Below, piece after piece: positions 6,668-61,640 of a DNA stretch of 64,000 bases. Below the pieces are notes generated by a model that did not search any database, was not told the origin of the DNA, and was given only the letters and a program-made list of their open reading frames with translations. The stretch covers positions 12,488,669 to 12,552,668 of the forward strand of contig JAJEKV010000013.1 of NCBI GenBank assembly GCA_021234155.1, read 5' to 3'. Source of the stretch: Isoetes taiwanensis. Its lineage: Eukaryota > Streptophyta > Lycopodiopsida > Isoetales > Isoetaceae. How positions within the stretch are numbered: the stretch's first letter is position 1; each line of letters starts with the position of its first letter. The position numbers and the translations under genes are program-made.

Positions 6668-6754
6668 GGACGGCAGAAGGACGACGGGATGGGGAAATAG
6701 GGCAAAAACTCAAAGACGAGGCGATGGATTCCCATAAAACAATTTCCATGCAGG

Positions 6755-7831: not shown

Positions 7832-7959
7832 GATCCTTTATTAATGATCAAAAGTAAATACAACACATAGTGCAGAACAACTAAAACGGCTCAAGAAGAC
7901 CAAGGCCGAGGCAAGACAGGAGGAGGAAGGGTCGGATGATGTGGTGGCGGCAGAACAAC

Positions 7960-12800: not shown

Positions 12801-13440
12801 GTTATAGTGTTTCCAAAGTCTACACCTGTTTAAATACGCCCCACCAGCCCTCCAAATCAAAACTTTATTGGGGTCTCTCTGATGATTATGAAAAAAGGCT
12901 TTTTAAGAATATCTGGAACTCATACTTGCCACCAAAGATTTCCTATTTCATCTGGTTAATTGCCAACAAGAGCTTGCCAATATGGAAACTTTAGCGAGGC
13001 ACTCGAATTCTTTAACAAATCCTGTGCATCCCAGCTGCCCTCTTGGTTGCAATAATGTTGAATCTCTAGAACATATCTTTGGCTGTGCTATTCTAAATTC
13101 TTTCTGGAGATGGTTTGAATTTACTTTCAATATCACTTGTCCTGCTACTTTGCTTGAGTTCCTAATGAATGATGATGCATTTAAGAATTCCTTGTGTTAC
13201 ATTGCTTTGTGGAATGTATGGAAGCATAGAAATAGGTGTCAGTATGGTGGAAAGACAATTTCTATATTCTGGATTAAATCTCAAGTTATCTATGACATAG
13301 AAATGGTTGCAACAAGTCAGATACACCAACATAAAGATTCCTTAGATTCTTTGGATAATAAATGGTTAAGTATAGGCAATTTCTCTGGTGCCTATAAAAT
13401 ATTTAAACTACATTGTCATGAATCTCTTACTGACACTTAA
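9885..13440 (+). pseudogene. LINE ORF2: endonuclease (partial), reverse transcriptase, zf-RVT
   Basis: Endonuclease C-terminal half: 'AGDFNNTP' near 10050 and 'SISDHQPQF' near 10320 (the catalytic H of SDH). RT: 'KGKSPGPDGLPPEFY' near 11060, 'WRPISLTNSTYK', 'LKLDFSKAFDTV' (motif A), 'GVRQGCPLAPYLF' (motif B) and 'LQYADDSF' (motif C, YADD) near 11755. The segment 11669-12994 stays open for 441 codons. The C-terminus has 'CPLGCNNVESLEHIFGC' near 13040, the CCHC-like zf-RVT signature. Stops or frame changes at about 10595, 11026, 11685 and 12994 inactivate it. ORF2 would nick target DNA and prime reverse transcription there. Confidence 0.9.
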
Positions 13441-17546: not shown

Positions 17547-18095
17547 TAAGAAGTCGTATTTAATTAAAGTGGGACTCATTCCATTCCCATTTTTTTTTGG
17601 AACCCTGTTAATTTACATGAAAAAGAGCACCCCGACCCGAAAACTATCCTTAATTCGATTTTTTGTCTAGAACTCTGCATCGAAGCTTTCCTCCAGTTTT
17701 CCCTGATTAGCGAGTCGAGAACAAGAACAATGCAACTGAAACAATGGAAATTCATTACAGATTGAAATCAAAGTTCTAGATTGAAACCAAAGTTTACAAT
17801 GGTTGAAGATATCATGATGGTCGGGCTGACACAAATATTACATCATCTTCGCGACACGCACACCACCCTCCCATCGGGAACAACATGCGAGCAAGGTCCG
17901 AGTTCCAAGCCACAAGAGCAACTTGAAGAGAATAGAAATCTGAACACGCTAGCCCCATTATGGCTCCCGATCATGTCCTTTCTGTTCGCGATTTGTACTG
18001 GGAAAGGCAAAATCAAGTTAGTGCAAGTGATGCTACAGACAATACAAATAAGAAAACAACCAGTTCTAAGGGCCATTTCTGAAGAATGTAGGTGT

Positions 18096-18530
18096 GAGGC
18101 CTTTCTCAACTTCCTTGAGTCGAAAGGCCCCTCTGATGTAGCTTAGAGCCCAAAAAAACAAAAAAACAAGAAAAAAAAAATTCCTTCTTTTTCTAAGTAG
18201 GCAAAAAAAAAAATTTTTTGAGGGCCTTTCTCGACTTCAGCCGGTCGAAAAAAGACCCTCAAGGCCCTTCTATCGGCCTTTCTCGACTTCATGAGTCGAG
18301 AAACGTAGCTCGAGTAAAAATTTTTTTTTTTTTTTTAACTAGGAAAAAAAAGGTTTTTTTTTCAAGAAATTTTTAAGGGCCTTTCTCGACTCGTGGGTCG
18401 AGAAAAGCATCTGAGAGTAAAAAAACGCAGTTTTGGGGGGTTGAGAAAGGAAGCTCAAAGTGAAAAACAGAGTTCGAGGTCGAGAACCGCTAGATCGAGG
18501 ACCTTTCTCGACTTCATGAAGTCGAAAGGC
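18096..18530. repeat. Cluster of five TCTCGACTT palindromes
   Basis: Imperfect palindromes of the form CCTTTCTCGACTTC...GAGTCGAGAAAGG start near 18097, 18223, 18272, 18380 and 18501. Short A/T runs and copies of AAACGCAGTTTT/AAAACAGAGTT lie between them. The same motif, in a more regular array, is at 61140-61640 in the sister copy. Confidence 0.8.
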
Positions 18531-25388: not shown

Positions 25389-26088
25389 TGTTAAGATTTA
25401 GGTCATATAATACTTTCTTCAGTTGAAGCCAGATCTATAGCCTCAGATCATATTGGAGCTTGATATGAATTTGAAGGTGCAATGGTATAGAAAAGGGTAC
25501 ATCTCTTGAAAAAAAAAACAAGCATTAAAAGTTCGATTTGTGAATCAATGGTTTCCAAGTTCATTTCTAAAAGAATGCATGTGGGATAATTCTATACGAA
25601 AGCTTGTTTTCGTTGTAACGAATGTGGGATATATCGAAAGCTCCAGATTCTCAAGTTAGCAGGTTTATCCAGCCGAAACCGACTGCGGGTCATAGATAAA
25701 TACCAAGAATACAATGTGCTTGATCGACAACGGAGCATAGACCATTAATTCAGTGCCGGAATTATGGTTATAAGTTGAAGCAGACTATTGCTACAGTGTT
25801 CGAAGTGATCCCATTGCTACAGTACCATTTCGGTATTAATGGCTAAGGTTTAGCTTAATGGTTGAATGGATTTGTGTTTGCACTTGATGTTTGCAAGGGA
25901 TTAGAGACCAAATTGTGGCTCCCTTGTGATGTATTTGCTAGCCAAATACATGTTGCTATCAAGATGCATTTGAAAAATTAAGTCTATAACTTTTTCCTTT
26001 TGAATCATTGCATTTGTATCATTTGAACAAGTTATAAGCTTGTGATTCTTGTGAGAAGAAAAGCATTAAGTAGATTTCATTTCTAACA
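25389..26088 (+). repeat. Copia 5' LTR (700 bp)
   Basis: Starts TGTTAAGATTTAGG and ends TTTCTAACA. It matches 30024-30137 followed by 42839-43431. It is flanked on the left by AAACC and on the right by the primer binding site. Confidence 0.95.
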
Positions 26089-26089
26089 T

Positions 26090-26102
26090 TGGTATCAGAG
26101 CC
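26090..26102 (+). promoter_or_regulatory. Primer binding site (initiator tRNA-Met type)
   Basis: TGGTATCAGAGCC starts one base after the LTR end plus T. This is the standard Copia complement to the 3' end of initiator tRNA-Met, where minus-strand synthesis starts. Confidence 0.9.
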
Positions 26103-26120
26103 AAGTTGGCTAAAGTCATA

Positions 26121-28276
26121 ATGTCTACTAGATTTGCAGCAAATTTGTTAAATCAAATTGAAGTATTTAAGGGGGATACTGGATTTCAAGTCTGGAAGGA
26201 ATCTATTAAGTCTGTCTTGGAGTTTGAGCATTTGTGGCATCTTATAGATGGAAGTCAAGCTAGAGTTACTAGCTCAGCCAGCTCTGGGAGTACAAGTCCA
26301 GGTACTAGTTCAAGCAATCCAGGTGGAGGGAGTGGAAATCCAGAAGGTTCAGGAGCATCTTCTGCTCCAAGAGCATCTTCTGCCTCCATTGTTGCTGAAG
26401 TAGATGACACCAAGGTTATGGAAGCACAGCAGATTATTCTGAGCAAAGTTGGCACTGCTCTTAAGCTGAGGTTAAGGGGTTTGAAGCCACATGAAATGTG
26501 GCAGTACCTTTATAAGCCAAAGATGAGGTAAAAAGCTCATCTCAAATTGATTTGTTAGAAAAACAACTAAGGAAGCTAAAGTTGTTTGAAAAAGATAATC
26601 TAACAGAATTTTTGAAGAAGTTTGATTCAATTGTGGCAGATCTTGAAGGAGCTGGAAATGTTCTAAGTGAACAATACCAAATTTTGGCTCTATCTAGGGC
26701 TGTCTCACATAATTCTCAGCTTGCAACTCTAGTAAGAAATATAGCTACCTCAAAAGAACATGCTCTAAGGATAATCCGAACTGAGTTTGAACAGACAAAG
26801 GGCATGCAAGAGGATGACCAATCTCCAGAGGTATTGTTTGCAAGAAAACAGAAAAAAAGAGGCAGCTCTAACTTTGTAAAAGAGAGATTGGGGCCTTGTT
26901 ACTCTTGTAATCAGTATGGGCATTTGAAAAATGAGTGTCCAAGTGGAGGTAAGCAATTTAAGTGTTTTAATTGTGATGGGAAAGGGCATATGTCTGCAGA
27001 CTGCCCAAGTCCAAAGGGAATTGGAGGAAGAGGCAGAGGTCGAGGTAGAACTCAAATGGATTCAAGGAGAGGAAGGGGACGTTTTAAAGAAAGTTCAAGT
27101 CTGAACATTATGGAAGAAGCAACTGAAGAAAATTCTGATGATATTGAGGTAAAGGATGTATTGAATATTTCTGAATATCTTGCCAAAAATAATAACAAGT
27201 TTCTCATTATAGATTCAGGAGCAGAAAAATCAGTAGTGCATGATATCAAGATTTTAAAGGAATGTAAAAGGGAGAATGGTCATGTTCAGCTAGGAGATGG
27301 TGGGGTGCAGAAAATCCGAGATTCTGGAATCTTAGAGTTATTTGATTTGAATGGCAAAAGTGTGTTGCTTAAAGAAGTTTTGTGTGTGCCAACTCTTGTG
27401 AGAAACTTAATTTCTGTGTGCCAACTTGTGGACCTTGGATTTAAGGTTGTTTTTGAAAAGCTTGAATGCAAAATATTTCTTAATAATATTTTGAAATTCA
27501 TTGGAAGAAGAGTAGGAAATTTGTTTGGCTTTGACAAGGATCACTCATTGTCTGTCAATATTGTTGAATGTACATCAAAGACAATGTGGCATAATAGATT
27601 GTGTCATACTCATTCATCAAATATTGATCTGCTCATTAAAAACAAATTTATAACAGCAAATGTGGATGGAGAAAAGAAGCTATGTGCTGGCTGTCAGCTT
27701 GGCAGGCAATCAAGGCTAGCTTTTAAAACAAAAGCCAAGAGAGCTCAAAGGGTGTTGGATTTAATCCACACAGATTTGTGTGGACCTATTAACATCACTG
27801 GAATAGAAGGGCATAGATATTTTATGACATTCATAGATGATTTCAGCAGAAGAACAAGATGTTTTTTGTTAAAAACAAAAGATCAAGCTTTTGAAGCTCT
27901 AAAATTATTTGTGGCTGAAGTTGAGTTAGAGACAGAAAGGAAAGTGAAATGCATAAGATCAGACAGAGGGGGGGAATACTTGTCAAAGGAATTTAAATGG
28001 TTTTGTGTTAACCGTGGTATTAATGATGATAATTCCTTAGAGGTAGATAAGTCTAACTCTGAGGTAAAAGAAATGGTTGAGCATACTGCTCAGACTGAAT
28101 TCAAAGTGCAGGATACAAGTGACCTTGATGTTGACAGTGACAATGAAAATGGAGATGAAGAAAAGGTTGAGGCACAAGATACTGCAGTAGAAGTTGAACC
28201 TTTGCAGAGAAACTTCCACAAAGAGAGCCCGCAGCAGAACCGCAAGATCGAACATATGGCGCGTAACCCATTATAG
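26121..28276 (+). pseudogene. Copia Gag, protease and integrase region
   Basis: An ATG at 26121 gives 'MSTRFAANLLNQIEVFKGD'. A frame change near 26520-26550 splits Gag. The rest stays open for 574 codons: zinc knuckles 'CYSCNQYGHLKNEC' and 'CFNCDGKGHMSADC' (26900-27005), protease 'IIDSGAEKSVVHD' near 27210, GAG-pre-integrase 'MWHNRLCHTHSSNIDLL' with 'CAGCQLGRQSRLAF', then the integrase core 'DLIHTDLCGP' (first D) and 'IRSDRGGEY' (second D). Immediately afterwards the frame jumps to acidic linker sequence ('NDDNSLEVDKSN'), so the third catalytic residue (E, in the usual HTPxQNGxxER block) and the integrase C-terminus are deleted. A stop at 28274 separates it from the RT. Confidence 0.92.
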
Positions 28277-30011
28277 TTGAACCTGTTGCAAAGCCAAAGA
28301 GGAAAACTAGAAGAACTGAGGCTCAGATCTTGGCTGATGAAAGCAAGCACAAGTTAGAATTGCATGGTAGAACTGAAGCTGGTAGAAGCAAAAGACACCA
28401 TGGAGACACAGGTGAAATACATTCTGTGTTTGATATTCTGTTTTTGGAAACTGACAAGCTGCCAAGTAATGTTGGAGAAGTGTTAAAAAGTAAGGATTCA
28501 GCCAGTTGGAACAAAGCTATGGAGGATGAGATGCTATCCTTTGAAAGAACAGGAACTTATACTGTGGTTGATAAACCACCAGGAAAAAATATTATTGGGA
28601 GCAAATGGATCTTTAGGATCAAGCCAGGCATTAATGGGCAAACAAAGAAATTTAAAGCAAGGCTTGTTGCACAAGGATTCACTCAGAAAAAGGGATTAGA
28701 TTTTGATGAGACGTTCTCTCCCTTAGTCAAAATAAATAGCTTGAGAATGTTACTAGCAATTGCCAACTCATGGAACATGGAGATTCACCATATGGACGTC
28801 AGTACAGCTTTTCTTAATGCAAAACTAGAATAGGAGATCTATTTGAAACCTGCTCCAGGGTTTGAGGAAGAAGAAGGGAAAGTTTGGAAGTTAAATAGGG
28901 CAGTTTATGGTTTGAGACAGGCTCCAAGAGAATGGTACAAATGTATGGATAATTATCTTTTAGAGCAAGGGTTTGAAAAATTGAGGCATGATGGAAATTT
29001 GTACAGGTACAATGATGGGAAGAAATGGTGTATTATAGCTCAGTATGTTGATGATAACATCATGGTCGCAAATGAAAAAAACATTCTAGCTCATTGTAAA
29101 CAATTGCTCAACAGGAGATTTCAAATGACAGATTTAGGTGAGCTTAAGAGATTTCTTGGGATTGATGTATATAGAGACAGGAAGAATAAAATTCTGAAGT
29201 TGAGCCAGTCAACTCATATTACAAACATGTTAAAAAAATTTAATATGAATGAGTGCAACATAGCACATACACCTTTAGTTCCGGACACGGGATCTCACCG
29301 TATGTGTCCAACTACAGAGAAGGAGTTGAAGCAAATAAATATACCCTACAGATCACTAATTGGATGTCTATCTTATCTAGCAAATTGTACAAGGCCAGAT
29401 ATAGCCTTTGGCGTAAATATATTAAGCAGGTACAACAATAATCCCGGTCCGGAACATTGGACAAATTGCAAAAAGAATTCTGAGATATCTCAAGGGACTC
29501 TAAATGTTGGGATTATGTACAACTTCGGATGAACTGCAACTCAAAGCTTCTTGTGACTCGATTGGGCGGAGATCTAGATCAAAGAAAGTCAACTTCGGTT
29601 ATGTTGTTTTACTTGGAGGTGCTCCTATAGCTTGGAAATGCAAAAAGCAAGGAAGCATAGCTCTCTCTAGTGCGTAAGAGAATACAATCAAAGACAGCTC
29701 TATTAACTAAAGAAGTGGTTTGGGAAAGAAGGTTGTTATCTGAACTTGGTGTAGAACAATCTGAACCTACAATCATTTTTTGTGATAGCACGAGCTGCAT
29801 TGCCATGTCAAAAAACCCTGTGTTGCATGAAAGAAGTAAACATATAGAGATGGAAATACATTTTGTACGAGACATGGTTGAAAAGAATCTAGTACAGCTT
29901 GCCTATGTGAATACAGTTGATCAAAAAGCAGATCTGCTAACTAAAGCATTGTCACTGGGGAGGTTTCAGAACTTAAGAGATTCAGTGCAATACAATGGTA
30001 AGAAAGATTAT
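28277..30011 (+). pseudogene. Copia reverse transcriptase and RNase H
   Basis: RT: 'WNKAMEDEMLSF', 'KWIFRIKPG', 'KARLVAQGFTQKKGLDFDET', 'HHMDVSTAFLNAKLE' (motif A), a TAG stop at 28831-28833, 'VYGLRQAPREWY' (motif B) and 'QYVDDNIMVA' (YVDD, motif C) near 29040. Then 'LIGCLSYLANCTRPDIAF'. Frame changes follow near 29475. The RNase H end is recognisable as 'IIFCDSTSCIAMSKNPVLHE' and 'RSKHIEMEIHFVRD', with 'DQKADLLTKAL' near 29925. This is the normal Copia order, with RT after integrase. The stop and frame changes make it inactive. Confidence 0.93.
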
Positions 30012-30013
30012 AT

Positions 30014-30023
30014 GAAGGGGGAA
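30014..30023 (+). promoter_or_regulatory. Polypurine tract of the Copia element
   Basis: GAAGGGGGAA directly precedes the 3' LTR start TGTTAAG. It is the expected plus-strand primer. Confidence 0.9.
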
Positions 30024-30137
30024 TGTTAAGATTTAGGTCATATAATACTTTCTTCAGTTGAAGCCAGATCTATAGCCTCAGATCATATTGGAGCTTGATA
30101 TGAATTTGAAGGTGCAATGGTATAGAAAAGGGTACAT
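30024..30137 (+). repeat. Copia 3' LTR, first fragment
   Basis: Matches the first 114 bases of the 5' LTR up to GGGTACAT, then breaks into the inserted transposon. The remainder is at 42839-43431. Confidence 0.95.
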
Positions 30138-30169
30138 AACCATCATTCAATTAAATTGGAATTATGTCT
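30137..30169 (+). repeat. Left terminal inverted repeat of the 12.7-kb element
   Basis: 33 bp, reverse complement of 42808-42840 with a single mismatch (position 24, A versus G). Similarity ends after GTCT. Confidence 0.93.
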
Positions 30170-31127
30170 ATTCCAAAATCGCGCCGTATAAGCATTTTAT
30201 TGACCATTATATTGAATTAACCACACTTTTGCACTGTGTTCATTTTCGGGCTAGGAAGATGCATTTTATGTTGAAATGCAAAGGCATTCAAATATTGGAT
30301 GCAAATGACCCATATTATAACAGAATGTTGGCAATAGAAAAAGCAGGAAATTGCTTATTAATTCGCACATTCACGAACAACAACGAAATCTAAACATTGA
30401 AATTGTAATGCTTTACGAATAAATAACAGCAAGCAAGTTGCTACAAAACAGAGATTTTCGTGGTTCAAATCGCGCGTGGCGCGATTTGCTTGGCATAAAT
30501 AACGCATTATAATAGAACATAAACTTAAAAAACTAATCCGATTCATCGCCGTCAATTATTTTGGTCCCGAGATCCCGTCGATCATGAACAAACCATGCTC
30601 GGATTCCATATAAGATGGATTACAACATCAAAGGGATCAGGATAGAAGCGGGCCGGGATTCATAGCAACGCGACATCAAGCCAGTCCCAAGTTCTATTTC
30701 TAGCTCGCGGCACCGCAGAGGTCCGCATGGTTCATCGTCGCGGTAATAGAATGTGCCATAATAACAAGCGTATATGAGACCGGCCGATGGTTTGCCAATT
30801 TCATGCATGCCTATTTATACACACCTAAATTATTGACCGGTATATACATACAAATTATTGCAAGTATAGCAACTCATACACATAATATAAAAAAAAATAT
30901 TACCACGTAACCAATAATGCTGATATAAGAACACAATATATATTCAAAACCTTTACGTGTAAAGTATATTTCATATTCAAAACTTTTGGAAAGTGTATTT
31001 TCTCAGATACATATATATCAAAAAGTTCCCTTTCTAGAACGATTTTCTCAAGGTCCCCGTCAATTTCCCCGTCCGATCAAGTTATGGGTGTAGTGTTTGT
31101 ATCTCTTCGATTTGTTTTTTCCTGAAG

Positions 31128-31660
31128 CTATTTCCTGCAAGACACTAACAAAGCGGCGGTGAAGTCATCTTTGTCAAAATCTTGAGGATGATAGGGTGGC
31201 GGATTCAATGACTGTGACTGATTGAAGCAACACTTTAGAGCGTCATCATCCACAATGATCATGCCTTCCTTATCCTCAACACCTAGGGCATCCATCATGT
31301 TGCGCAAGCATTTCACAAATATCTTTTTACCTGTCGGTTCTTTAGGGTTTGTGAATGAAGCACATTTGCTTTGATCCCAGATGGACGCCCAATCTCTATT
31401 TAGCTCAGGCACTACTTTCAAAACATCCTGTATATTTCTATGCTCCATAGATGACCAAATTGCACAACGAAACATACTGAAGGCCTGGTCCAACATCTCC
31501 TTCGGATAAGGGCGGGTAAACATATTTGGTAATGTGTCTCTCAAATGGTTGTTAAGCATACCATGACTTTTCGAACGTTGCTTTAGGTAACATTCTACAT
31601 AGCACACCATTCAAATCAAAGACCAAAGACTTTTGGGGAAGCCAAATCATTTTACGTAAG
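31128..31660 (-). pseudogene. NLI/FCP1-type HAD phosphatase domain, frameshifted
   Basis: Minus strand. 'KSLVFDLNGVLC' near 31640-31600 is the N-terminal HAD motif of plant FCP1-like proteins (DLNG in place of DxDx). After a frameshift, 31560-31128 gives 'FTRPYPKEMLDQAFSMF', 'AIWSSMEHRNIQDVL', 'SIWDQSKCASF', 'KKIFVKCLRNM' and 'IIVDDDALKC', the order seen in NLI-interacting factor phosphatases (Thr/Ser loop, WSS, WDQSxC, K, IDDxxxK). It lies downstream of the methyltransferase-like exons, across an intron-like gap holding palindromes. It may be the C-terminal domain of the same protein or a captured host gene fragment. RNA polymerase II CTD phosphatases belong to this family, but no target can be inferred here. 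Confidence 0.75.
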
Positions 31661-31840
31661 GAGAACAATAACGTATGAGATAAAAGAAATGGTAAACGAA
31701 AACGCGCCAGGCGCGATTTCATGAATGATGCATGTCAACATAATTTAAAAATATGATCTCTAGGAAACTATAAATCGCGCCTGGCGCGATTTCTATATGC
31801 TTGCAGTTTGTAAAATGCATGGATATCAAAAAAAGGAATA

Positions 31841-33430
31841 TTGTTACGATACCTTTCTTCTTCTTCATTCCCCGTTGTGACTTCTTCCGTTGCATCCTTA
31901 TTCTGAGTTGTCTCCGGTCTGATAGAAGCACCAACCACATCAGTTGAGATCTGTACAGTGTGAACTATGCTTGATAGTTCATTACTCTTTAAGCTAACCT
32001 GGCTAGTGTTTTCAGATTTGGAGTCTGCTTCATCCTCATTATTGTTATTATCATCATCCTTGTTATCTTCAACCTGTTCTATATTTTTAGGGTCAAGGAT
32101 GTTCACAGGGATGTCGATAGGTATTTGGTAATTTGGCTGATCTTCGGTTTCATCCATGATGTTGTGGCCAACGAATAGCTTTCTCAATCCTTCCCGTTCC
32201 TTAAGCAAATCTGCAGGTATTTCGGCCTTAGAGGTAGAAGCTTTGCTTTTTGCACTGTCGATTGGTCCCCTAGTTGCTTCCTCTAGTACTTTCTCAAAGA
32301 AGAGGTCCAAGAAATTTTTGGCTCGATCATCCGAGAGACGGCGCCCGACATTTCCTTGCTAACTTCAAAGCTTCTCTACCGATGTAACCTCCAACGTGAA
32401 GTTCCCAGCAAGTTGTTCCCAATGGACAAAATGCTTCAATGAGATACTGGGAAAGGTCCATAGAGAACCCGTTCTTGTTTAGCTTACCCTTATGTGAAGT
32501 TAGGAGCTCATACTTAATGTGGCCCACAAGAATTGGGTCGTCCTCGTTTTCATCCTCTTCTTCCTCTAACTCTTCCACGACCTTGACACCCTTCCCCTTG
32601 TCTTCTTGCTCCGGATAGAAGGCGTTTTAGCGATATCGTTCATCTAACTGATAGCACTGTCATGCTAGTTTGTCTCCATCTGGTTTTCCCTTGAGCCTTT
32701 CATATTCCTTATCATCCATCATGACTATCATAATTATAAGCACATGAAAAATTTTACTTTAAATCTTTGAAGTCACCGGCCCCCTCGCTTTTTCATCTAT
32801 GAGGATCGCCGTCATTATGACTTTCACGCATTCTAAGTCATTTGCAGCAGTTAGAGCATATGCATAGGACATGTCGGAGGGACATATAGTGATAATTGTG
32901 TAGTTCATCTCCGTGGTGAAACCATTGCATATGTTGAAGAACGTATTATAGTCATCAAGCGACCATCTGGTGCCTCGGCTATCAAGGACGAAGAGTGTGA
33001 TATCATGGGGACCAGCACCCACTTCTGGCAAGGCACACTTGAAACCAGTGGACACTTGATAAAAGAAAGTGGATTCTGTCTCCGGAGTCTGCTTCACCAT
33101 CGCGACTTTTCGTTTCAAGTCGGATGCAACTTTAGTGTGAAGCCCACTGATCTTTGCAACGTTCTTCAACTTCTGCTGCTTGACAAAGTCCTTGGACCAA
33201 AATACATACTTCTTCAGGTCGTCGTTGGAGACGTTATACTTTTGCATGACTCCTAACTCCGACAACGATCACTCTCCTGTAAGCCTTTGTAATTCCTCAC
33301 CAACTGCCTTCTTGAGCACTCTAATATTCTTCAGCTCGTCGCATGCATCTTCAAATGATTCTAGAGCCTTTGCTGCCGAGGTTTTCTTGTAAAGAATTTC
33401 CTTTACGATTAACTTTGTCGGGCGAGATCA
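31841..33430 (-). pseudogene. Beta-class amino-methyltransferase-like region (N6-A/N4-C type)
   Basis: Minus strand, downstream of the ParB-like exon. Order seen: a helical stretch ('KALESFEDACDELKNI', about 33360), then 'GPHDITLFVLDSRGTRW' (32985-32970; the place of motif IV, DPPY in active enzymes) followed by 'YTIITICPSDMSYAYAL'. After a gap, 'DPILVGHIKYELL', 'KNGFSMDLSQYLIEAFCPLG' and 'TTCWELHVGGYIGREALKLA' with 'RKC' (about 32450-32335) correspond to motifs X and I (usually DxFxGxG and gRkxxgiE). Motif IV before I is the beta-class order. An acidic Ser/Asp/Asn-rich tail runs to the GT donor near 31841. Catalytic motifs IV and I are both degenerate and there are in-frame stops, so this copy is unlikely to methylate DNA. 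Confidence 0.6.
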
Positions 33431-33489
33431 GCTCTTGATCGTCCAATCCAATCTGAGCCTTCCTCATCTCTCATTATATGTATATCAAA

Positions 33490-36142
33490 ATTGATGTGTC
33501 AACGGGAGGAAATCTTCCTTGTGAATCGGCAACTTCTTCTCGACGTAGGCATCCCAGAATTCATTCCATTTCTCCCATACTGGATCTGAAGCAAATACTA
33601 TCTTGCAGGCATCCTTGGGCACAATTGGTTCCTCAGAAGCGTCACCCTTTTCATCCCCTTTTTTTTTCTTTGATCTGGTGCTCTTGGTTTTGTCTTGTAT
33701 TATCGTCTGACTAAGTGTCCTCTCCAGCAACTTGAATTCAGCCGCTTTTATCGGCCCGGCAATGGTTGGCATTGGCTTCCCATATTCAATCCATTGGTTC
33801 CGGAGCATGCGAAGTTGCTCTATATAGGGACCAAAGGAGTGACCTTGTTAGCTTCATAATCGGAATGAAATAAATCCTTCTAGTTTAAAATCGCGCTGCA
33901 GGCGCGATTTCATATTAAAGCAAATCGCGCCCGGTAGCGATTTGCCTACTCTAAAGAGAAAACGCTTATTGATCCGTTTCGTCAAACAAATCATCATCGG
34001 CGCCGGGCGCGATTTCATATTAGAATGCAAATCGCGTCAGCGAGGCCTAGCCCGGAGGAGGCTTGGCTATTAGGCGGATAGCCTTTTCTCCGAGGGTAGG
34101 CAAATCCCGCGTGGGGCGTTTAACATTCTAATATGAAATCGCTGGCGAGGCGCCATTTGTTGTTTGACGAAACGACTATCAATCCGTGAGCGTTTTTTCT
34201 CTTCCGAGGGGCAAATCGCGCTGGCTCATTTGATTCTAATATGAAATCGCTACCGGCGCTGATTTGCAAATAAGCGAAAACCTAAGGGAGGAAAATTACC
34301 TTTTTGTATAAGAATGTTTTTCCCATGTCATTCGTGAGGCGCTTATTTCGCTAGCTTCGGCGGTGTGGTTGAGCCGCCAGAACCCGGCGGTTTAAATGTA
34401 ATACGACTTATAGAACAACCGATGCCCGGTTATCTTGTGCCTTCTTGATCGAGAACCTTCGGGCCTCTATTGAATGCTGGCCATCTATTATCATGAAATG
34501 TATGTCAGGATTCTCGATGAAGTCCTCCAGCTTGCTCCACATGATTACCTTCCTCGTTCTGGTATCGTACGGCACTACATCTGCAGGCATTGGCACTTGC
34601 CCTGGATTTTCGATCATGATGTTCACTATCTCCAAGGAGTGCTGCTTGTCATACCTTCTGCTGATATAAATGGCTTTAGTGGACCTGAAAAGCCTATCCA
34701 CGTGGACTGGATGGGTGAAGCTCAGGCCCAGTGGATATTTGTCAGCATATTTTTTGAGCTTGCTCATCGCCTCCAACTGCCTGGCCTTGTCATCGTCACT
34801 TGTAAGGCCTGCTGTCGCTTCTGTAATTTCCCTGCCTTTAGAGCTTTCTTCTTCCTTATCCTTCACTGCCTGTAAGTAGACACTGCCCGAGGGCCTCGTG
34901 CTAATGGCTCGCTGTAAGCCCCTCGCATATTCTTTTAGGAGTCAATGGCTCGCCAACTGTCCAGCCAAATTTGAAGAGGTTATCGGCCATGTCGTCTGAT
35001 CTTAATGCAGTCTCTTTAAAAGAGCTAGCACTGCATCGATTGATCTTCTTTAGGCTCTTCTTATGTTTTTGGCCCACTTCAACTAGCACAGAACAGAAAG
35101 AATCGTCTTGTACTTCGCATGTAATAAGAATTCCCTGCTTCTTCATTTGATCAGTCTCTCTTACCCTTGACATGAATATGAGGTCTGTCTTCCCACCAGT
35201 TTTGAATATCTCCACATACCATTCTGACCCCTCTACAAGATCCTCTTCTGGACATGTAGGTTCTACCTGAGCCTTTATTATTCCAGATGTATCTTCTAAC
35301 GTCAATACATCTTTGCAGTGCATAATAAGATAACATCTTCATCATCCCTTTGCTTTTTTCGGGTCAGTAGAGGTCTCACCTTGCTTGGTCCTCCCTCTTT
35401 TGCTTGTCTTTTGTGATCCTGTGAAATTACAGCACATGGGTTAATCTTTTAATGCTCAAATATATGCTGTCGACACATATGCAACAAAAAAAAGCGGCAA
35501 GCGATTTGAAAATGAATACACAGCAAGTTCATTTAGTTTATTGGGGTCAGGGGCCAGGCGCGTTTTGTCCCAGTCAAAATGCAACAAATACGCGCTTGGC
35601 GCACTTTAGAAGTGACCTGAAAGACAAAGAAACTAATGTAATGCCTAATTAAACTGCACCAGGGGCGTTTTGTCCGAATCAAAATGCTCAGGACACAACT
35701 AACTATAAAAAATGCAACTTAAAGAGTTGAATCTTCATTAGAGGACACAACTAACTATAAAAAACACAACTAGCTACTGAATACTGTTCAGCTAAGTATA
35801 CAAGCTTCAAACAGCATATACAGCATTAAAAGAGAAACCAACATGCACACATTAAGCATTTATTTCCATACATTTTTGGGACATATGAACTTAAATATTA
35901 GAGGACACGTGCTTCTTATCAGATAATAACTATATTATTACAGAAAAACATCCTAAAAATCTAACAAAAAAAGGGACACAGAAATCAATTACAGAACAAA
36001 AACAGATCAATTACCTGAGGCGCTTGTTGGATTTGTGCTTTCTGCTTGTTCAGCAAAATTCTCCGGGCTTGGGATTTGTGCTTTGGGTCATTTGCCCACC
36101 TCTACCAAATACTTCGGCGGCGGCGGATTCTCTAGACGCCAT
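33490..36142 (-). pseudogene. ParB-like 'DGQHS' domain protein, N-terminal exons
   Basis: The ATG at 36142 gives 'MASRESAAAEVFGRGG'. The donor is CTCAG|GTAATT at 36015/36014. Exon 2 starts after TTTCACAG (35418) and runs to AAAAAG|GTAATT (34300). With one frameshift near 34935 it contains 'ALRSDDMADNLFKFGW', 'THPVHVDRLFRSTKAIYISR', 'MIENPGQVPMPADVVPY' and 'HFMIIDGQHSIEARR' (34480-34440). The R-then-P/V...DGQHxxxAA pattern is that of ParB/sulfiredoxin-fold domains (GERR or DGQHR box). The intron 34299-33844 holds a palindrome-rich inverted repeat. Exon 3 (33843 to about 33490) has 'YIEQLRMLRNQWIEYGKPMP' and a Lys-rich linker. ParB domains fused to methyltransferases are common in bacterial and phage proteins; here the fusion is inferred from exon order. 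Confidence 0.6.
33888..34265. repeat. Intronic long inverted repeat carrying CG palindromes
   Basis: About 33935-34020 and 34136-34224 are inverted copies (shared: GATTTGCC, AGAGAAAA..CGCT, ATTGAT..CG, TTTCGTCAAAC, CATATTAGAAT), with a spacer containing GGAGGAGGCTTGGCTATTAGG. Each arm carries several of the AAATCGCGC..GCGATTT sites. The block lies inside the intron between exons 2 and 3 of the ParB-like gene. Confidence 0.75.
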
Positions 36143-36577
36143 AGAACTGCAAGTGCGGATAATATGAGACTGGGGTTTTGGTTTAAACTTATATGTATGC
36201 GTTCATAATCTAGGCCATCAGATTTACAACCGTAAATTCAAATTCGCGTCCTTTTAAATTTATACCGCCTTAATTAACCGCCCGTCCCGCTCATTTACAA
36301 ATTTAAATTGTGTTTTTCTTTTTAGTGCAATTTCAAGATAACAATTAATTATTAATTTCAAAAAACGATATGTGGCAATCTACTACCACCTAATCGGCCA
36401 CCTACTATCGAGGCCCAAGATCATTCCTACTATCGAGGCGCCCAAGAACAATCGACTATCGAGCGCCCATTCGATCGAGCGCCTTCAATCCCATTCGATA
36501 TCTCTGAACTATGGTGAGTGTGATTCCATTCGAATGCATTCTCTTGTTCTCTATTTTTTGTCCTCTATTTTTTTCCA
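36143..36577. promoter_or_regulatory. Divergent start region of the two transposon genes
   Basis: Lies between the minus-strand ATG (36142) and the first plus-strand exon. AT-rich (TTTACAAATTTAAATTG, AATTAATTATTAATTTC), with short direct repeats near 36395-36450 (CTACTATCGAGGC(G)CCCAAGA). A bidirectional promoter is inferred only from the divergent layout; no TATA box is certain. Confidence 0.4.
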
Positions 36578-36847
36578 ATGCATTACGGTTCTTTATCGAT
36601 TAATGGGAGAAGAATGCTATCTTTTAACAACAAACTTGAAGCTTGGAAGGTAGGCTTACGTAAAATCGAAGATCTGAATCCAAGTTCTATGTGTCATGGT
36701 GTTCCTCTTGGAAACAGTTTCTGTAAGATTTTTATTATAAACTGCAATTATGAAGATGAGGCTCTTTCAAGAAGACATCCCGGTGGCGATACAGTTGGTG
36801 AAAGTGTGGGCACATTTGTAGCATGGCCAAAAGAACGTCTGAAAAAG
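36578..36847 (+). pseudogene. First exon of the plus-strand transposon gene (DUF8039-like)
   Basis: Open from the ATG at 36578 to a splice donor AAAAAG|GTATGT at 36847/36848. It encodes 'CHGVPLGNSFCKIFIINC' and 'GGDTVGESVGTFVAWPKERL', matching the domain found in plant transposase-related proteins ('..PLG....V.V....GD.VG...AWP...'). The phase (90 codons, phase 0) fits the acceptor at 39633/39634 and the frame of the next exon, so the exons could be joined across an intron of about 2.8 kb. A second copy of the same domain, with 'VAWPRESIQLEG', lies in the next exon. Confidence 0.55.
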
Positions 36848-36996
36848 GTATGTATATTTGGATATTCAAAAAAAAATGAATATATCATAACATCTGCGTG
36901 ATGTTGTGAATTTTGAATTCTTTGATGTTCTTTAGCCAGTCATATCAACCCCATGAAACTACACATTAATGAAAATATGTAGTTTCTTGGGGTTGG

Positions 36997-37579
36997 TCAT
37001 ACTGGCTGGAGGGCATCAAAGGATTCAATGTTTTCGACATTGCATATAAAAAAACATAATAAACTAATGACATAAAAATTCATATTCCAAAAAAGTGTAT
37101 GTACATTTCTTCTTCTGCAAAAATGCGCCAGGCGCGAATTCTTTCTATCTCTACAATATGTCACATAGGCCCACCTCATCGGCCCAATACCGCAAAAAGT
37201 CCCACCTGAACCACTCTGATATGACAGGATCCTCATCTTCCCTGCGAATGTCGAGTCTCCAAACCAGAGTGTTGTATCGATCCTTGATACTATAAATCAA
37301 ATCCTCGTACTTATTTGTTGGCATGAGCCTTACTAAGAGCATGAGGAGCCGCATATGTCCAGAGATGCGATGGAAGTGTTCCCATGGCCCCTGATACAGA
37401 CTGTCTAATGGATTCTCCAACTCTCTTTGAACGTTTTGAACAGCACAAGCAAGTAATATCTTGTACAGGGTCCAGAGTTGATGGTCGTCCAGGGGAAGTG
37501 TATTTGAACTAGAACCAGCCCGGTTAATATTTGAACTAGGATCAGCCAAAGGTCCATTCATAAGGAAAATCCATGGCAC
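36997..37579 (-). CDS. Unrecognised minus-strand open frame in the 12.7-kb element
   Basis: A 142-codon frame (37579-37151) with 'LLACAVQNVQRELENPLDSL', 'LMLLVRLMPTNKYEDLIYSI' and 'FRWDFLRYWADEVGLC'. Its composition looks coding, but I do not recognise a family. It lies on the opposite strand within the putative long intron of the plus gene and upstream of the ParB-like gene, so it could be a small third gene of the element. The CG palindrome at 37121-37138 lies just downstream. Confidence 0.3.
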
Positions 37580-37904
37580 TAGAACGAGAAAATTAAGTAA
37601 TTAGCAAATGATATATTACTCTCCCCATAAAACGATTCTCAACATACATAATTCAAAAACGCCAGCGTTTGTTTTATTTTTTCACAGATCTATTTCACGC
37701 TACCTGGCGCGATTTGTATAGAACCGTATGAAATAGAAAAGCCAAACTAAAACGCCGCTGGCGGCGCTTTGATTAACCTAGTGGAAAATCGAAACCAAAA
37801 TAGAAATGCGTCCAAGCGATTTCTCCCATTCTAACGTATTATTCTAACGTAATGCATAATGCGAAATCACGAGAATTCAAAATATGAAGCCAAAATAATA
37901 TGAA

Positions 37905-39480
37905 GGCGAGAATATAATAAAATAGAATGAAGACGATAGAGCGGATATATAATAATAATACTCCTTGTTTAGTTCAATATTTAGTTCATTGTTTTAGTTC
38001 ATTATTTAGAGCAGATAGAGGAAGAGCTAGTGAAATAGAATAAGAGCAGATACAGCAAAATCATATAAGCAAGATCATAGAGCAGATAGATCATAGAGCA
38101 GATAGATCATAGATCATAGAGCAGATAGATCATAGAGCAGATAGATCATAGATCATAGATCATAGATCATAGATCATAGAGCAAGATCATAGAGCAGATA
38201 GATCATAAATCATTATTTACTTCATTATTTTAGATCATTAATTAGAACAGATAGAGGAAGAGCTAGTGAAATAGAATAAGAGCAGATCATATAGGCAAGA
38301 TCACAGAACAAGATCATAGAGCAGGATCTATATATGAAGGTGCTAGGGCAGTTTAGGGCTGATGCATGTAAAAGTCTAAGCCAGAAACCTGAAGCTCATA
38401 TAGTACTTTAAGTAAAGAACAGAAAATACTAATCTATTTGTGTTCTGTACCCGAGAATTGAGCCTTTGCCTTTGAGCCGAAACCAAAAAATCGAAAACCA
38501 AAGTTGATTTGATTCGAGAAGCCAATAGCAGATGATTTGAGCCTTAAGAAGCCAAGAAGAAGCAAACCGAGAAGCCGAGAAGCTTCAACACAAAAACAAA
38601 AAACCAGAAAACTTTGTTATTCAAAAGCCAAAAAATCCAGAGACATTGTACAGAGCCTACAAACCTTTGAGCCGAAAACACCTTTGAGCCGAAAACACCT
38701 TTGAGCCGAAAACCCTAAAGTAGATGATTGTAGAAGCCGAAAAGCTCGAAAACGCAGATAAAAGCAGATAAAAAGCAGATAGAAGCCGAGTTTAAAGCAT
38801 ATAGAAGCCGAGTTTAAAGCAGATAGAAGCCGAGAAGCCGAGATTGAGCAGATAGAAGCCGAAGTTTAAAAAAGCGGATAGAAGCCGAGAAGTCGAGATT
38901 GAAGCAGATAGAAGCCGAGAAGCAGATAAAAGCCGAATTTGGAAGCCAAGATTGGAAGCAGAAGCGGAAGCGGAAGCGCCTGTAATTAGCTTGGAATGCG
39001 AAAAGTTCGAAGTGAGAAAAAAGGTTCAAAAAAGGGTAATGCTAACTTCAAATAATAACCGCCTTCAAAATTTATCACACAGCGCAATTATCACTTTTGG
39101 GCCTTGAAATTTATTACAAAGATTTTTTGTTTTAAGGACCGTGACTTTAAAAGTTTAAAAGTTATGAGTTAATAGTTAAGTTAGTTGTTAATAGTTATAA
39201 GTTAATAGTTAATAGTTAAGTTATAAGTTATAAGTTAATAGTTTAAAAGTTATAAGTTAATAGTTAAGTTAGTGACCTTAAAACTAACCTTAAAACTTAG
39301 TTCTAACCTTAAAACTTTTAACCTACAATAACTTTCCAACCTTAAAATTTCTAACCTATAATAACCTATAATAAACTTCTTAACCTTAAAACTGCTAACC
39401 TATAATTAATAACCTTAAAAGTTGTTGCTAAGGTTATTATAGGATAAAAATTAGAAGGTTATAAGTAGAGGGTTTTATTT
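37905..39480. repeat. Three minisatellite blocks in the transposase intron
   Basis: (1) About 38080-38215: units of GATCATAGAGCAGATA/GATCATA. (2) About 38650-38990: GAAGCCGAG(A/T)..AGCAGATA units. (3) About 39160-39460: TTAATAGTTAAGTTATAAG and AACCTTAAAAC units. An internal copy of 'AGCTAGTGAAATAGAATAAGAGCAGAT' style sequence near 38027 recurs near 38262. All lie inside the 12.7-kb element. Confidence 0.8.
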
Positions 39481-39633
39481 ATATATAATGTTGAGGAAAA
39501 TAATTTGGGGAATCCCATTATATAAATAGAATGATCAAATAGAATAAGACATATATGAGGCTTTCATTTATGAACATGTTAGTGAGAGGTTATTTGGATA
39601 TGCTAACTTACTATATGTTTTTATGCATTCTAG

Positions 39634-42587
39634 GTCAATGGCATGCAAAATGCTAAAAAAAAAGCCCCCAATGATGCTGATCAAGGCAAGGAAAAATCCC
39701 CAACTAATGAACATGATGGCCAAGGAAAGGAAAATACCTCAAATGATGTTGATGATGGCAAAGGAAAGGAAAAGACTCCAAATGATGTTGATGATGGCAA
39801 AGGAAAGGAAAAGACCTCAAATGAAAAGAAAGGAAATTGTACTTTATACTCGGGTCGATTGGAAAAACAAAAAGGTCAAGATCCGGCATGCATGCAATAG
39901 AGAGGCAGTAGGAGAAGGGATTATTGTTCTAGCAGATCCTATCAATGCAGTGAATGATGAAAGACTAGGGGAGGACAGGTTAGGTGTGGCAATCTCAAAA
40001 TTATATGACAATTGGAAGGAAAAGGGTTCAGGCAAACAAGAATGCCTAGCTTGTGTGAAGCAACTAGAGGTTCCAACTATTGTTGCATGGCCTAGGGAAA
40101 GTATTCAACTGGAGGGGAACTACACGTTTCCTATAGATGTAGAACCATTGTCAACAATGTTCACACAGTGTAGCAAGAGGCCACTTCCAACTTTCAAACA
40201 TTATCCCACCAAAAGATGCAAGTCAGATTATGATTGTTCTCCTGAAGCTATGATGAAGGTTAGAGGAGGTGAATGTTGTTGGGCTTCTTGTGTTAGAATG
40301 TTCACAATAGAGGAGTTGGTGGGAACAAGAGCTACATATCGGGAACATAAGTGTGATAGCGGGAGGAATTTCATGTACACCATATTTGGCTATGCAATTA
40401 GGGATGAAAGATCAAAGAAGAAAAGATTCCCATTGAATGGAAAGTGGATATGTTCAAAAGCATGGATGGCTATACATGGAATTCCAACCTCTTCTTGGCA
40501 CAACCGGCAAAAGAGACATGAAAATGGTAGTAAAATTGCATTGCATGGGAACACCGGCCGGTAAGGCCTACCTCAAGAACTATAGCCGCAAAGGAAATAT
40601 TTGAAAGATATGTGGATTTCAATGCGTAAAAACATGCCACATAAGAGTAAGAAGGATGAACAGGGATAGAGTTATTGTTGAAAAGAGATTGTCATCCCAT
40701 TGTACCCGGGAGAGCATATTAGAGGAAATAAATGCATTGCTTCGGGAACTTGGAGTGGCCTCTATATCCCAGCCCAGTTTTAGTAGGCTATGGAATAAGC
40801 ATTTCAAGCATGTGACCATAGCAACTTCAAACAACTTTGCCAAGTGCAATTTATATGCTAAGTTGAAGGAGACACTAGATAAGATTGTGCAACCAAGTCT
40901 AAGGGCAAAGATAAGGGAACATATGAAGGACCATATGACGGATCAACTATCATGTAGATCAACTTATTGGATGTGGAGGACCTTATCGCAATGGAACCTA
41001 ATAACTATCTATGTATTATACATGATAAAATGGACCAACAGAAGACTTGTCTTCCACAATTCAAGTACATTCCTAAGTCATGTGAAAGATCATACCCTTT
41101 TGCGATTTCAATGATCAAAGCAATATTGCATGGGCGCCCCTCGGACCTATTATGGTCATTTCAGTTTAGAGTTGTGGAGTGATGGTCCAGATTTTCACAT
41201 TGGGAGTATCATGAGGTGTTTAAGAAACTATGAGAAGGGTTACAATGGTCACCTCTGGGATCCCACGGCTAGCCGTGCACTACATAGTGCATTGTTGGAT
41301 GGAACCCTAATAGTATTGAAAAGTTTAGCAAGGCAAGATTTAGGAGGAATGGACCTAATGAACATGTTGGAGCTTCAACATCTCGTGCTAAACCTCGAGA
41401 TCCGCCCTTGAAAGCTCCTCTTGCAACTAGATAATTGTGCTTTGGTCAAAATAAGAACAGTGGATGTTTTCTTTCCTATCCTACTTACTAATTTGTGGGT
41501 ATTTTTGAAAGAGTCAATTTGGGGTTCCTAATGCCCTATTATACTCATGAGGATGTGGATGCATTGTTTGGAAAATATAGTCATGTATTGAGACAACAGA
41601 CAGTTACCAACTTTCCCAGGCTATTGGAAATATTTCATGGATGTACAAATCCATCTCCTATAGGATCTATCATAGAAGAAGTGCCTGATTGGAAGAGTTT
41701 TGTGGATGGTTATGCTCTCGACATGGAAGGTCATTCTAGACCTCTTCAATTCACTTTTGGGTGAGAGAAGGGATTCCAATCATGCAATGGAAAATGAGAC
41801 CTTCAGGAGGAGAAGTGGAGAGGTGGGGCAGAAATTTGGCACGGGGATGCAAATGGCAAGCCTATGATACCTCTGGTCAACCAAAAGCTCTAAAACCAAC
41901 CGAAGAAGTCAAGCAATTGGGATTGACTAAGGATGGCATCAATGACTACATCAAGCAATCGCAAACTAATTTAATCGTGCATTGATAGATTATTGGAAGA
42001 AGGTGATCAACTTGTTGGATGAGGTAGACACATCCTCGGAAAAGCCGAAAGAAGGGTGGTTCCCTAAAAATAAGTGGAAAACATTAGCTGGTGCTTTAAG
42101 ATGATGGTACCATTAGTAGCATTGTGAAGGCATATGCTCCTCCTCAATCGATAAACACTATGTTGGTCCTAAGAAGGATATGCCAAAATATTTAGGCATG
42201 GATTGTTATGAACCTTCTCTTGACGTGGAGTGCCACCAATTTGTAGTAGTAAAACCAAGATCTAGAGACCTATCCAAAGGTGGTTGGGATACACTATCTC
42301 GGATATTTGCAAAGAAGAAGGTGATGTTAACTTCAATAAGGTGCGCGTGGAATGGTGGTGTCCAGTACATCAGTTGAGTAATGTCACCGAAAAAAGAAAG
42401 ATATTCAGATTGTTGGGCAAAGAGGTGGAGGAGAAATCCAAGTGATCCTGATCTTTGGCTAGACATTGAAACCGTATTGTACTCGTGGACTCCAAAAACT
42501 ATTCCTAGTAAAACAGCGAGAGTTACAATACCTCAGGATGTAAGGAATAAGGTTCTCATATCCTTGGGGATGCTAGTGAAAAAATGA
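39634..42587 (+). pseudogene. DUF7869-type transposase-like protein, multiply frameshifted
   Basis: The acceptor CATTCTAG at 39633 starts an exon: a Lys/Asp-rich linker with near-repeats (GKGKEKTPNDVDD), a DUF8039-like domain ('GEGIIVLADPINAVNDERLG', 'VAWPRESIQLEG'), then 'RFPLNGKWICSKAWMAIHGI' and 'HGNTGR'. Next come 'SFSRLWNKHFKHV', 'FAKCNLYAKLKETLDK', 'CIIHDKMDQQKTCLPQFK' (D at about 41024), 'LQLDNC' (about 41424-41440), 'VGIFERVNLGFLMP' with 'THEDVDALFGKYSHVL' (about 41546), and finally 'KVRVEWWCPVH' near 42340. That order is the DUF7869 protein family. The D...DN...E spacing (about 135 and 40 residues) would suit a DDE-type nuclease (inference). At least six frame changes or stops inactivate this copy. 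Confidence 0.75.
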
Positions 42588-42807
42588 AAAACAGTTACTA
42601 TGTATCTTTTCTACAGTTAATAAAAGTTGTGTACTACTTGAGTTCCATGATATATGATTTTGTAATTTGAAGTTAAGGTGTGAGTTTATATTCCCGTGTG
42701 TGATTATATGTTAACGTCTATTCTAGTCTAAGGGCAACAAAGTTACTAAAAAAGTGAATTTAACAAAGTTACTAAAAAAGTGCAATATAAAATTTATCCC
42801 AAAATTA

Positions 42808-42840
42808 AGACATAATCCCAATTTAATTGAATGATGGTTA
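42808..42840 (-). repeat. Right terminal inverted repeat of the 12.7-kb element
   Basis: 33 bp ending GAATGATGGTTA, the inverse of 30137-30169. Its last two bases overlap the TACAT direct repeat at 42839-42843. Confidence 0.93.
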
Positions 42841-43431
42841 CATCTCTTGAAAAGAAAAAAACAAGCATTAAAAGTTCGATTTGTGAATCAATGGTTTCCA
42901 AGTTCGTTTCTAAAAGAATGCATGTGGGATAATTCTATACGAAAGCTTGTTTTCGTTGTAATGAATGTGGGATATATCGAAAGCTCCAGATTCTCAAGTT
43001 AGCAGGTTTATCCGGCCGAAACCGACTGCGGGTCACAGATAAATACCAAGAATACAATGTGCTTGATCGACAACGGAGCATAGACCATTAATTCAGTGCC
43101 GGAATTATGGTTATAAGTTGAAGCAGACTATTGCTACAGTGTTCGAAGTGATCCCATTGCTACAGTACCATTTCGGTATTAATGGCTAAGGTTTAGCTTA
43201 ATGGTTGAATGGATTTGTGTTTGCACTTGATGTTTGCAAGGGATTAGAGACCAAATTGTGGCTCCCTTGTGATGTATTTGCTAGCCAAATACATGTTGCT
43301 ATCAAGATGCATTTGAAAAATTAAGTCTATAACTTTTCCCTTTTGAATCATTGCATTTGTATCATTTGAACAAGTTATAAGCTTGTGATTCTTGTGAGAA
43401 GAAAAGCATCTAGTAGATTTCATTTCTAACA
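42839..43431 (+). repeat. Copia 3' LTR, second fragment
   Basis: Resumes the LTR at TACATCTCTTG and ends TTTCTAACA. It is followed by AAACC, the exact duplicate of the five bases before the 5' LTR. Confidence 0.95.
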
Positions 43432-60537: not shown

Positions 60538-61139
60538 TAAATATGTACCAAATTCAAATTTCGAAAATGAGGGGGAAAAAAAGCGGGGTAGAGTAAAAAT
60601 AACAATAAAGATTTAAAAAAGAAATAGAGGATTTATTTGTTTGAAGCTTTACATTTTCCGCAAGTTCTAGTCATATTTGGCAAGTTTAATTTGGCAAGTT
60701 TTATGCATTCTTTCAAGCATTCTTTGTATGCTCGTTTAGAGTTTGTGATAGTCTATTTTTCATAGAAAATATATAGGGAGTGTATTTTTCATAGAAAATA
60801 CATAGGATATTGTGTTTATTGAAAAATACATAGTATATAGGATATTGTGCTTTGTATGGACCGTGTGCTAGTATGCTAATGCGTGTATTATGAAATTGTG
60901 GTAGTATAAAGTACTAATGTGTCTGCTTTTTAGGTGTGCTAGTATAAAAATGCTAATGTGTGCTAATACTAATGTGTGCTAGTATAAAAACCATTGTTAA
61001 ATACTAATGTGTGCTAAATACTAATGTGCTGTGAGAAAAACAATAAACTATGGTGTGATAGAATAATAAACTATGGTGGAAAATTAGATGGATAGATAGA
61101 TAAAATGATGCTCCGCAAAAATAATCTCTGGCCCTTGAA

Positions 61140-61640
61140 ATTGCCTTTTTTTACTCTGAGCTGCCTTTCTCAACTCGCGAGTCGAGAAAGGCCCTCAAAC
61201 CTGCGTGCTTTGAGCTGCCTTTCTCGACTCGCGAGTCGAGAAAGGCCTTCTGACCCCTAAAACCTGCGTTTTTCACTTTGAGCTGCCTTTCTCGACTTCG
61301 CGAATTCGAAAGGCCTTTCCCGACCTAAAACTGCGTTTTCACTTTGGTGCCTTTCTCAACTTCGCGAAGTCGAGAAAGGCCTTCGACCTAAAACCTGCGT
61401 TTTCTGCAGCCGGGAAGGCCTTTCTCGACTTCATGAAGTCAAAAGGCCTTTGACCCTAAAACTGCGTTTTTTAAACTTTGGTACGCCTTTCTCGACTTCG
61501 CGAGTCGAAAAGGCCTTCAACCCCTAAAACCTGCGCTTTTAGCTTTGAGTCGCCTTTCGACTCGCGAGTCGAAAAGGCCTACTCGACACCTAAAACTTGC
61601 GCTTTTAAGCTTTGGTACGCCTTTCTCGACTCGGGCTCTC
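61140..61640. repeat. Regular array of about eight TCTCGACTCGCGAGTCGAGA palindromes
   Basis: Palindromes start near 61162, 61213, 61283, 61343, 61415, 61484, 61550 and 61617, with a period of about 50-72 bp. Each is a GCCTTTCTCGACT..AGTCGAGAAAGGCC hairpin, separated by 'CCTAAAACCTGCGTTTT' and 'ACTTTGAGCTG'. The first two are nearly perfect; later ones have changes in one arm. The same motif is in copy 1 at 18096-18530. Confidence 0.9.

Follow-up and report, generated by a model that had tools for sequence, protein, structure and literature searches.

A frame-broken copy of a high-copy, two-gene DNA transposon family in Isoetes taiwanensis, and the question of whether it encodes a DNA-marking enzyme

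Does a plant transposon carry an enzyme that marks its own DNA? The question is raised by a 64,000-nucleotide stretch of the Isoetes taiwanensis genome (contig JAJEKV010000013.1, positions 12,488,669 to 12,552,668; hereafter the window), in which a DNA transposon with terminal inverted repeats (TIRs) had been read, from its letters alone, as bearing a ParB-like and methyltransferase-like gene. Our analysis points elsewhere: we consider it probable (at about 0.8) that this feature is an inactive copy of a high-copy, two-gene family of TIR DNA transposons in a large (probably plant) genome, in which a DUF7869 transposase is regularly accompanied by a second gene.

The element lies in the 3' long terminal repeat (LTR) of a copia-type element, which it interrupts between 30024-30137 and 42840 onward. 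Across the junctions the sequence runs GGGTACAT / AACCATC...GATGGTT / ACATCTC, whereas the uninterrupted 5' LTR reads GGGTACATCTC, an empty site in which a single ACAT joins both flank sequences. Because the flanks of the split 3' LTR could be compared with this empty site, the insertion can be set at 30138-42839 (12,702 bp), with a 4-bp target-site duplication (TSD) of ACAT:

30134 to 30137, no strand: left copy of the TSD ACAT, from comparison of the flank with the 5' LTR
30138 to 42839, no strand: TIR DNA transposon, entire copy, from its TIRs, TSD and the empty site in the 5' LTR
30138 to 30169, plus strand: left TIR, 32 bp, identical to the right TIR at 31 of 32 positions and recurring in other copies
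42808 to 42839, minus strand: right TIR, 32 bp, with the same 31/32 identity to the left TIR
42840 to 42843, no strand: right copy of the TSD ACAT, from the same flank comparison

The TIRs, the TSD and the empty site thus confirm what the sequence-only reading had proposed, a TIR transposon that splits an LTR; the proposed start, 30138, was also correct, but the end had been placed at 42838, one base short of the true end. With 32-bp TIRs and a 4-bp TSD, both in the window and in all three other copies that have both ends, the element has the ends of a cut-and-paste TIR DNA transposon. The copia type of the surrounding element (approximately 25.4-43.2 kb, i.e., 25389-30137 plus 42840-43300) is confirmed by Pfam matches to RVT_2, integrase, GAG-pre-integrase and zinc-knuckle families. 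Its two LTRs are identical at 508 of 512 aligned bases and differ by one 2-nt indel (an extra 3-nt gap arises where the aligned stretch takes in some of the second TSD copy). The copia insertion is therefore young, and that of the transposon younger still. By eye, this copia element has interrupted pol frames and lacks part of its integrase. The coding content of the transposon exceeds chance, with six stop-to-stop open reading frames (ORFs) of at least 150 amino acids, where 200 dinucleotide shuffles give 0.2 on average and at most 2. The element carries two divergent genes:

39827 to 42566, plus strand: decayed DUF7869 (PF25273) transposase gene, Pfam 2.3e-17
41018, 41421 and 41540, plus strand: motifs IHDKMD, LQLDNC and YTHEDVD, respectively, of the DUF7869 gene
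37151 to 37600, minus strand: ORF with a probable upstream exon of the second gene, present in nine of ten other copies and matching no Pfam family of note
34300 to 35338, minus strand: region B, about 350 amino acids, frame-broken here and open in other copies, with DGQHS starting at 34485
33831 to 34299, minus strand: putative intron between regions B and M, from comparison with other copies, with AAATCGC/GCGATTT arms clustered inside
32336 to 33830, minus strand: region M, about 500 amino acids, with no assignable domain (the earlier 'methyltransferase'), shared with other copies
31768 to 32358, minus strand: acidic linker, in the same frame as region M in copies including C1058 and C1030
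31128 to 31660, minus strand: FCP1/NIF-like phosphatase domain (PF03031), frame-broken, Pfam 4.2e-11, with DLNGV starting at 31617

On the plus strand, the product is a DUF7869 transposase, probably with an RNase-H-like core to judge from fold prediction and from its conserved acidic motifs. The domain and these motifs also occur in three UniRef entries of Physcomitrium patens labelled DUF7869 (P0060, P0068 and P0069), the DUF7869 proteins P0003 and P0004 have a weak N-terminal match to Transposase_23, an alignment of DUF7869 proteins (A1) found no match among PDB sequences, and a literature search with DUF7869 as sole term returned no paper naming it. The window gene is badly damaged: aligned to P0001 over 41211-42569 it has 14 frameshifts and no in-frame stop, and aligned to P0003 over 39827-42566 it has 17 frameshifts and five apparent stops. 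On the minus strand, region B carries five frameshifts and one stop, and region M five frameshifts and four stops. The minus-strand exons appear to encode one protein. The gap between regions B and M would be an intron, since it starts with GT in all six other copies compared and ends with AG in five of them (AA in C1028); in the window the donor GT is kept and the acceptor reads GG.

At the C-terminus of this protein, PF03031 matches at 2e-17 and 1.1e-17 over profile positions 1-158 in two other copies, and in the window its match improves to 2.6e-13 once the upstream frame is joined; the window ORF also matches HAD-IIID at 6e-4. By profile comparison the assignment to the FCP1/NIF family is solid. 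FCP1/NIF phosphatases have the catalytic motif DxDx(T/V). Here FDLNGVLC stands in the window and in five of six copies compared (C1076 is frame-broken there), so that the first Asp is retained and the second is Asn. The DUF7869-type protein, the DGQHS box (given there as 34480-34440) and the FCP1-like domain were rightly recognized in the sequence-only reading, each on the strand it had given.

Is the second gene a regular part of the element? With a 177-amino-acid ORF (34408-34941) as query against the window's own assembly (1,658,258,908 bases), at least 150 matches to the minus-strand gene were found, including the window's own, at 60-100% identity (150 scored among 3,908 first-look candidates). 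Ten copies were retrieved at length, chosen non-randomly for long open frames and a spread of identity, and all were located through the minus-strand gene rather than through the TIR. All ten carry regions B and M, the linker and the NIF part, in constant order and strand. The transposase N-terminal region is present in seven and DUF7869 in five, although some stretches may stop short of the gene; the DUF7869 of C919 is just ~39% identical to P0001. Eight copies retain the left TIR and four the right, and the three with both (C1107, C1042 and C1076) are flanked by the 4-bp TSDs ACAT, ACAC and CACT. Because the exon order is the same in all ten copies, and the three with both ends have the same TIRs and TSDs of 4 bp, the minus-strand gene belongs regularly to this high-copy family, and the sharing of TIRs and gene order makes the element more than a one-off. 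The predicted co-occurrence of the TIRs with this gene thus holds, within the host genome and for copies found via the gene.

Frameshift-aware readings were made for 18 of 22 sources (loci L015-L018, which gave no hit, probably because of their orientation, were left out) and, with the window, for 19 in all. Region B is free of frameshifts and stops in ten of the 19 (C1047 at partial length, and C1074 missing some residues), and region M in two of 17 (C1047, and C1007, which is partly covered). With both of its genes broken, the window copy is, by its reading frames, inactive; because it nonetheless sits inside a young LTR, it was most likely moved in trans by a transposase made elsewhere.

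Does region B belong to the ParB proteins? PF02195 matched neither the window ORFs nor eight open region-B copies at E<=10, in a search where HMMER filters conceal most weak matches. PF14072 (DndB) reached E 0.0014-0.18 in five of these eight copies, always spanning the DGQH site, and gave nothing in the other three or in the window's own region-B ORF; its best score was 18.2 bits, below the curated cut-off of 29.1. DndB has been described as ParB-like, and nucleotide binding was lost when Ala replaced the Arg of the P motif, according to the available part of PMC12704722; the accessible text of PMC4619093 lists three motifs of the DndB/DGQHR domain (DGQHR, FxxxN and a QR pair) and gives the related GmrS domain a predicted ParB/Srx fold. 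All ten aligned copies have DGQHS, i.e., Ser in place of both the P-motif Arg of ParB-CTPases and the Arg of the DGQHR pentapeptide, and FxxxN is not kept: its likely downstream place reads SALLN in eight copies and RALLN in one, and one copy ends earlier. Region B is thus plausibly a distant, altered relative that falls outside the PF14072 family as defined. The ParB call therefore stands weakly, at the level of the superfamily, but not as a PF02195 domain, a reading that we dropped for the weaker DndB/DGQHR one. With region B as query, PDB profiles returned two matches (E 0.37 and 0.68), and NCBIfam, PADLOC and PDB profile searches of regions B and M yielded nothing convincing.

For region M, the proposed beta-class amino-methyltransferase finds no such foothold. 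PF01555 had no match in window ORFs, in P0074 or in C1047, whose region M was the only complete and open one scanned. As a test set we used 13 beta-class methyltransferases (E. coli YhdJ and 12 phage genes), of which all seven that were scanned match PF01555 at 2.9e-24 to 2.4e-64; because none of these seven had a ParB domain, they test the methyltransferase half only. A hidden Markov model (HMM) built from these 13 beta-class sequences scored region M of the window at -2.0 bits, a value equalled or exceeded by 175 of 1000 shuffles, and unrelated window ORFs scored up to 3.4 bits. Among 17 region-M readings the highest score was 0.8 bits (C907), outside the proposed motifs; C1047 scored -1.5 bits (87/1000 shuffles as high) and C1030 -2.7 bits (311/1000). 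Comparison of the region-M family with the beta-class set by hhalign gave a probability of 0.74% (E 0.076, score 20.2), against a score of 18.7 for the reversed alignment, with two of 60 column shuffles as high, whereas one half of the beta-class set aligned to the other at a probability of 100; the power of the former comparison is limited, the family alignment having 13 rows, seven after the hhalign filter, and an effective sequence number (Neff) of 1.36. This weak alignment coincides with the stretch earlier proposed as motif X/I. At the place proposed for motif IV, the 13 rows mostly read LDSRG, with LDSRD, LDSHG and LDSPG in one row each, and none has DPPY. A single-sequence AlphaFold model of region M was uninformative (predicted local distance difference test, pLDDT, 35).

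The methyltransferase is thus unsupported by Pfam, PHROGs, NCBIfam and PADLOC (not each library on each piece), PDB sequences, the beta-class HMM and hhalign. These comparisons lend no support to region M as an active methyltransferase; a very degenerate relative, by remote descent, is still conceivable. Other weak matches outside the NIF part (Csx26, Lrp-type, RFC1, MutY, fucosyltransferase and others, at E 0.006 or worse) were judged to be chance. The minus-strand protein had no relative at E<=10 among database proteins of a limited length range, nor, with its NIF part included, at E<=1 among long database proteins; tblastn against phage and plasmid sequences gave no match, and scans of viral contigs confirmed no relative.

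A further feature of the element is a set of palindromes specific to it:

30176 to 37715, no strand: 12 AAATCGCGC / GCGCGATTT sites, where 200 shuffles of the element average 0.05 and never exceed 1
30467-30487, 31772-31792 and 33888-33910: three exact palindromic AAATCGCGC / GCGCGATTT pairs

The palindromes cluster in the putative B-M intron and close to the left end, and neither 9-mer occurs outside the element in the rest of the window. Ten other copies (loci L022-L041) have 5-19 sites each, seven of the eight with a left TIR have one 35-38 bp from the left end, and the B-M intron of six copies examined contains 2-13 of the shorter AAATCGC/GCGATTT arms. These palindromes are candidate binding sites, perhaps of the second-gene protein. 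Short AGATCATAGAGCAG-type repeats also lie at 37974-38351, between the two divergent genes.

In this two-gene family, the DUF7869 product would cut and paste the element. The second gene would encode a long protein that starts from a DGQH(S) region with weak DndB (ParB/Srx-like) resemblance, continues through a large unassigned middle and an acidic linker, and ends in an FCP1/NIF-like HAD domain. Proteins of the NIF family act in RNA polymerase II regulation, and the domain would suggest contact with that process; the protein may, with some uncertainty, be an accessory factor whose target is the DNA or the transcription of the element itself. A bolder version of this idea, which we think improbable, would make it an element-encoded chromatin or DNA-recognition factor, in which a ParB/DndB-descended module, a degenerate methyltransferase-like body and a phosphatase domain of the type that acts on the carboxy-terminal domain of RNA polymerase recognize the GCGCGATTT palindromes (in its own intron and near the left end) and keep the element transcribed or marked as self.

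The minus-strand protein could instead be a DNA-marking enzyme of the ParB-methyltransferase type, as originally envisaged. The constancy of DGQH(S), the sub-threshold DndB matches and the position of the best hhalign alignment on the motif X/I stretch would fit such an enzyme, and fusions of ParB with N6_N4 methyltransferases are described in phages (PMC12704722, in its available part). However, neither PF01555 nor PF02195 matches the window or the open copies scanned, while the seven controls match PF01555 strongly; LDSRG replaces DPPY in most rows, the HMM and hhalign results lie at chance level, and the Arg needed for nucleotide binding is Ser, all of which makes this reading quite improbable, and with it the claim of an element with its own DNA-marking enzyme. 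Alternatively, the minus-strand exons might be host genes captured once, as a Pack-type passenger, and not a functional gene of the element. NIF-type domains are present in ordinary plant genes, and the failure to find a relative among database proteins of the length range searched is in keeping with such an origin, but one capture sits poorly with at least 150 scored copies at 60-100% identity and the same multi-exon order in ten of ten. Region B is moreover free of frameshifts and stops in ten of 19 copies, some of them just ~80% identical to the reference. Together these observations suggest upkeep inside the element, and we hold a single capture to be unlikely.

Less likely than any of these is an intact window copy in which errors of assembly have produced the frameshifts. 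The alignment to P0001, with its frameshifts and no in-frame stop, might be taken that way, but five apparent stops appear against P0003 and five more in regions B and M. Moreover, frame changes number ~4 over 4 kb of the neighbouring copia ORFs (by eye), and the LTR pair has one indel in ~512 bp, far below the transposase gene, and frameshift-free copies of region B come from the same assembly.

How does such a family compare with known systems? Mobile elements with DNA-modifying enzymes have already been published: fungal DNA transposons encode TET/JBP dioxygenases (PMC12730594, available part), and retrotransposons of dinoflagellates and charophytes have acquired cytosine methyltransferases (DNMTs; PMC5890265, likewise in part). 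The former resemble the Isoetes element in being cut-and-paste elements with a second gene, which is presumed to act against silencing by the host, but TET/JBP proteins are known to modify DNA, whereas the Isoetes element has no established DNA-modifying domain; the latter also combine a mobile element with an extra chromatin-related gene, but are retroelements and carry a DNMT gene. The phage fusions share the order of a ParB-like region followed by a proposed methyltransferase region, per the accessible text of PMC12704722, but the Isoetes protein lacks a methyltransferase profile match and DPPY and has an additional NIF domain. With DndB/DGQHR (PF14072) and GmrS/DUF262 proteins, which the available parts of PMC4619093 and PMC12704722 place in a ParB/Srx-like superfamily, the likeness spans ~80 residues around DGQH; unlike DndB, region B has Ser for Arg, does not keep FxxxN, scores below the Pfam cut-off and stands in a eukaryotic transposon. 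A plant protein with a ParB domain ahead of a DCD domain is known (PMC1182354); compared by description only, it shares a ParB-type domain in a plant, and the portion of the source available mentions no transposon, methyltransferase or NIF part. Searches combining ParB, methyltransferase and transposon with fern or eukaryote listed no such plant transposon among their matches. A self-methylating transposon would be a tempting claim, which this analysis corrects. In its place stands a high-copy family whose conserved second gene, with an FCP1-like phosphatase domain at its end, makes an unusual candidate for element-encoded action on host transcription; with region B open in several copies, this can be put to the test.

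Rfam and tRNA scans across the window were empty. Besides the transposon and its copia host, the window contains a LINE-type (long interspersed element) reverse transcriptase at 11028-13440 on the plus strand (RVT_1 1.8e-26, with a weak zf-RVT match at 1e-4). This zf-RVT match, the moss homologues of the transposase and the weak Transposase_23 matches of P0003 and P0004 point to a plant as host. Minus-strand ORFs at 6134-7837, with a weak, sub-cut-off RNase-H match (RVT_3, 0.0029) and a YMDDFLF motif, perhaps represent a DIRS-like retroelement. Two repeat clusters ~43 kb apart (17551-18530 and 61118-63004) have inverted arms of up to 130 nt at 89% identity and TCGACTTC-type palindromic units.

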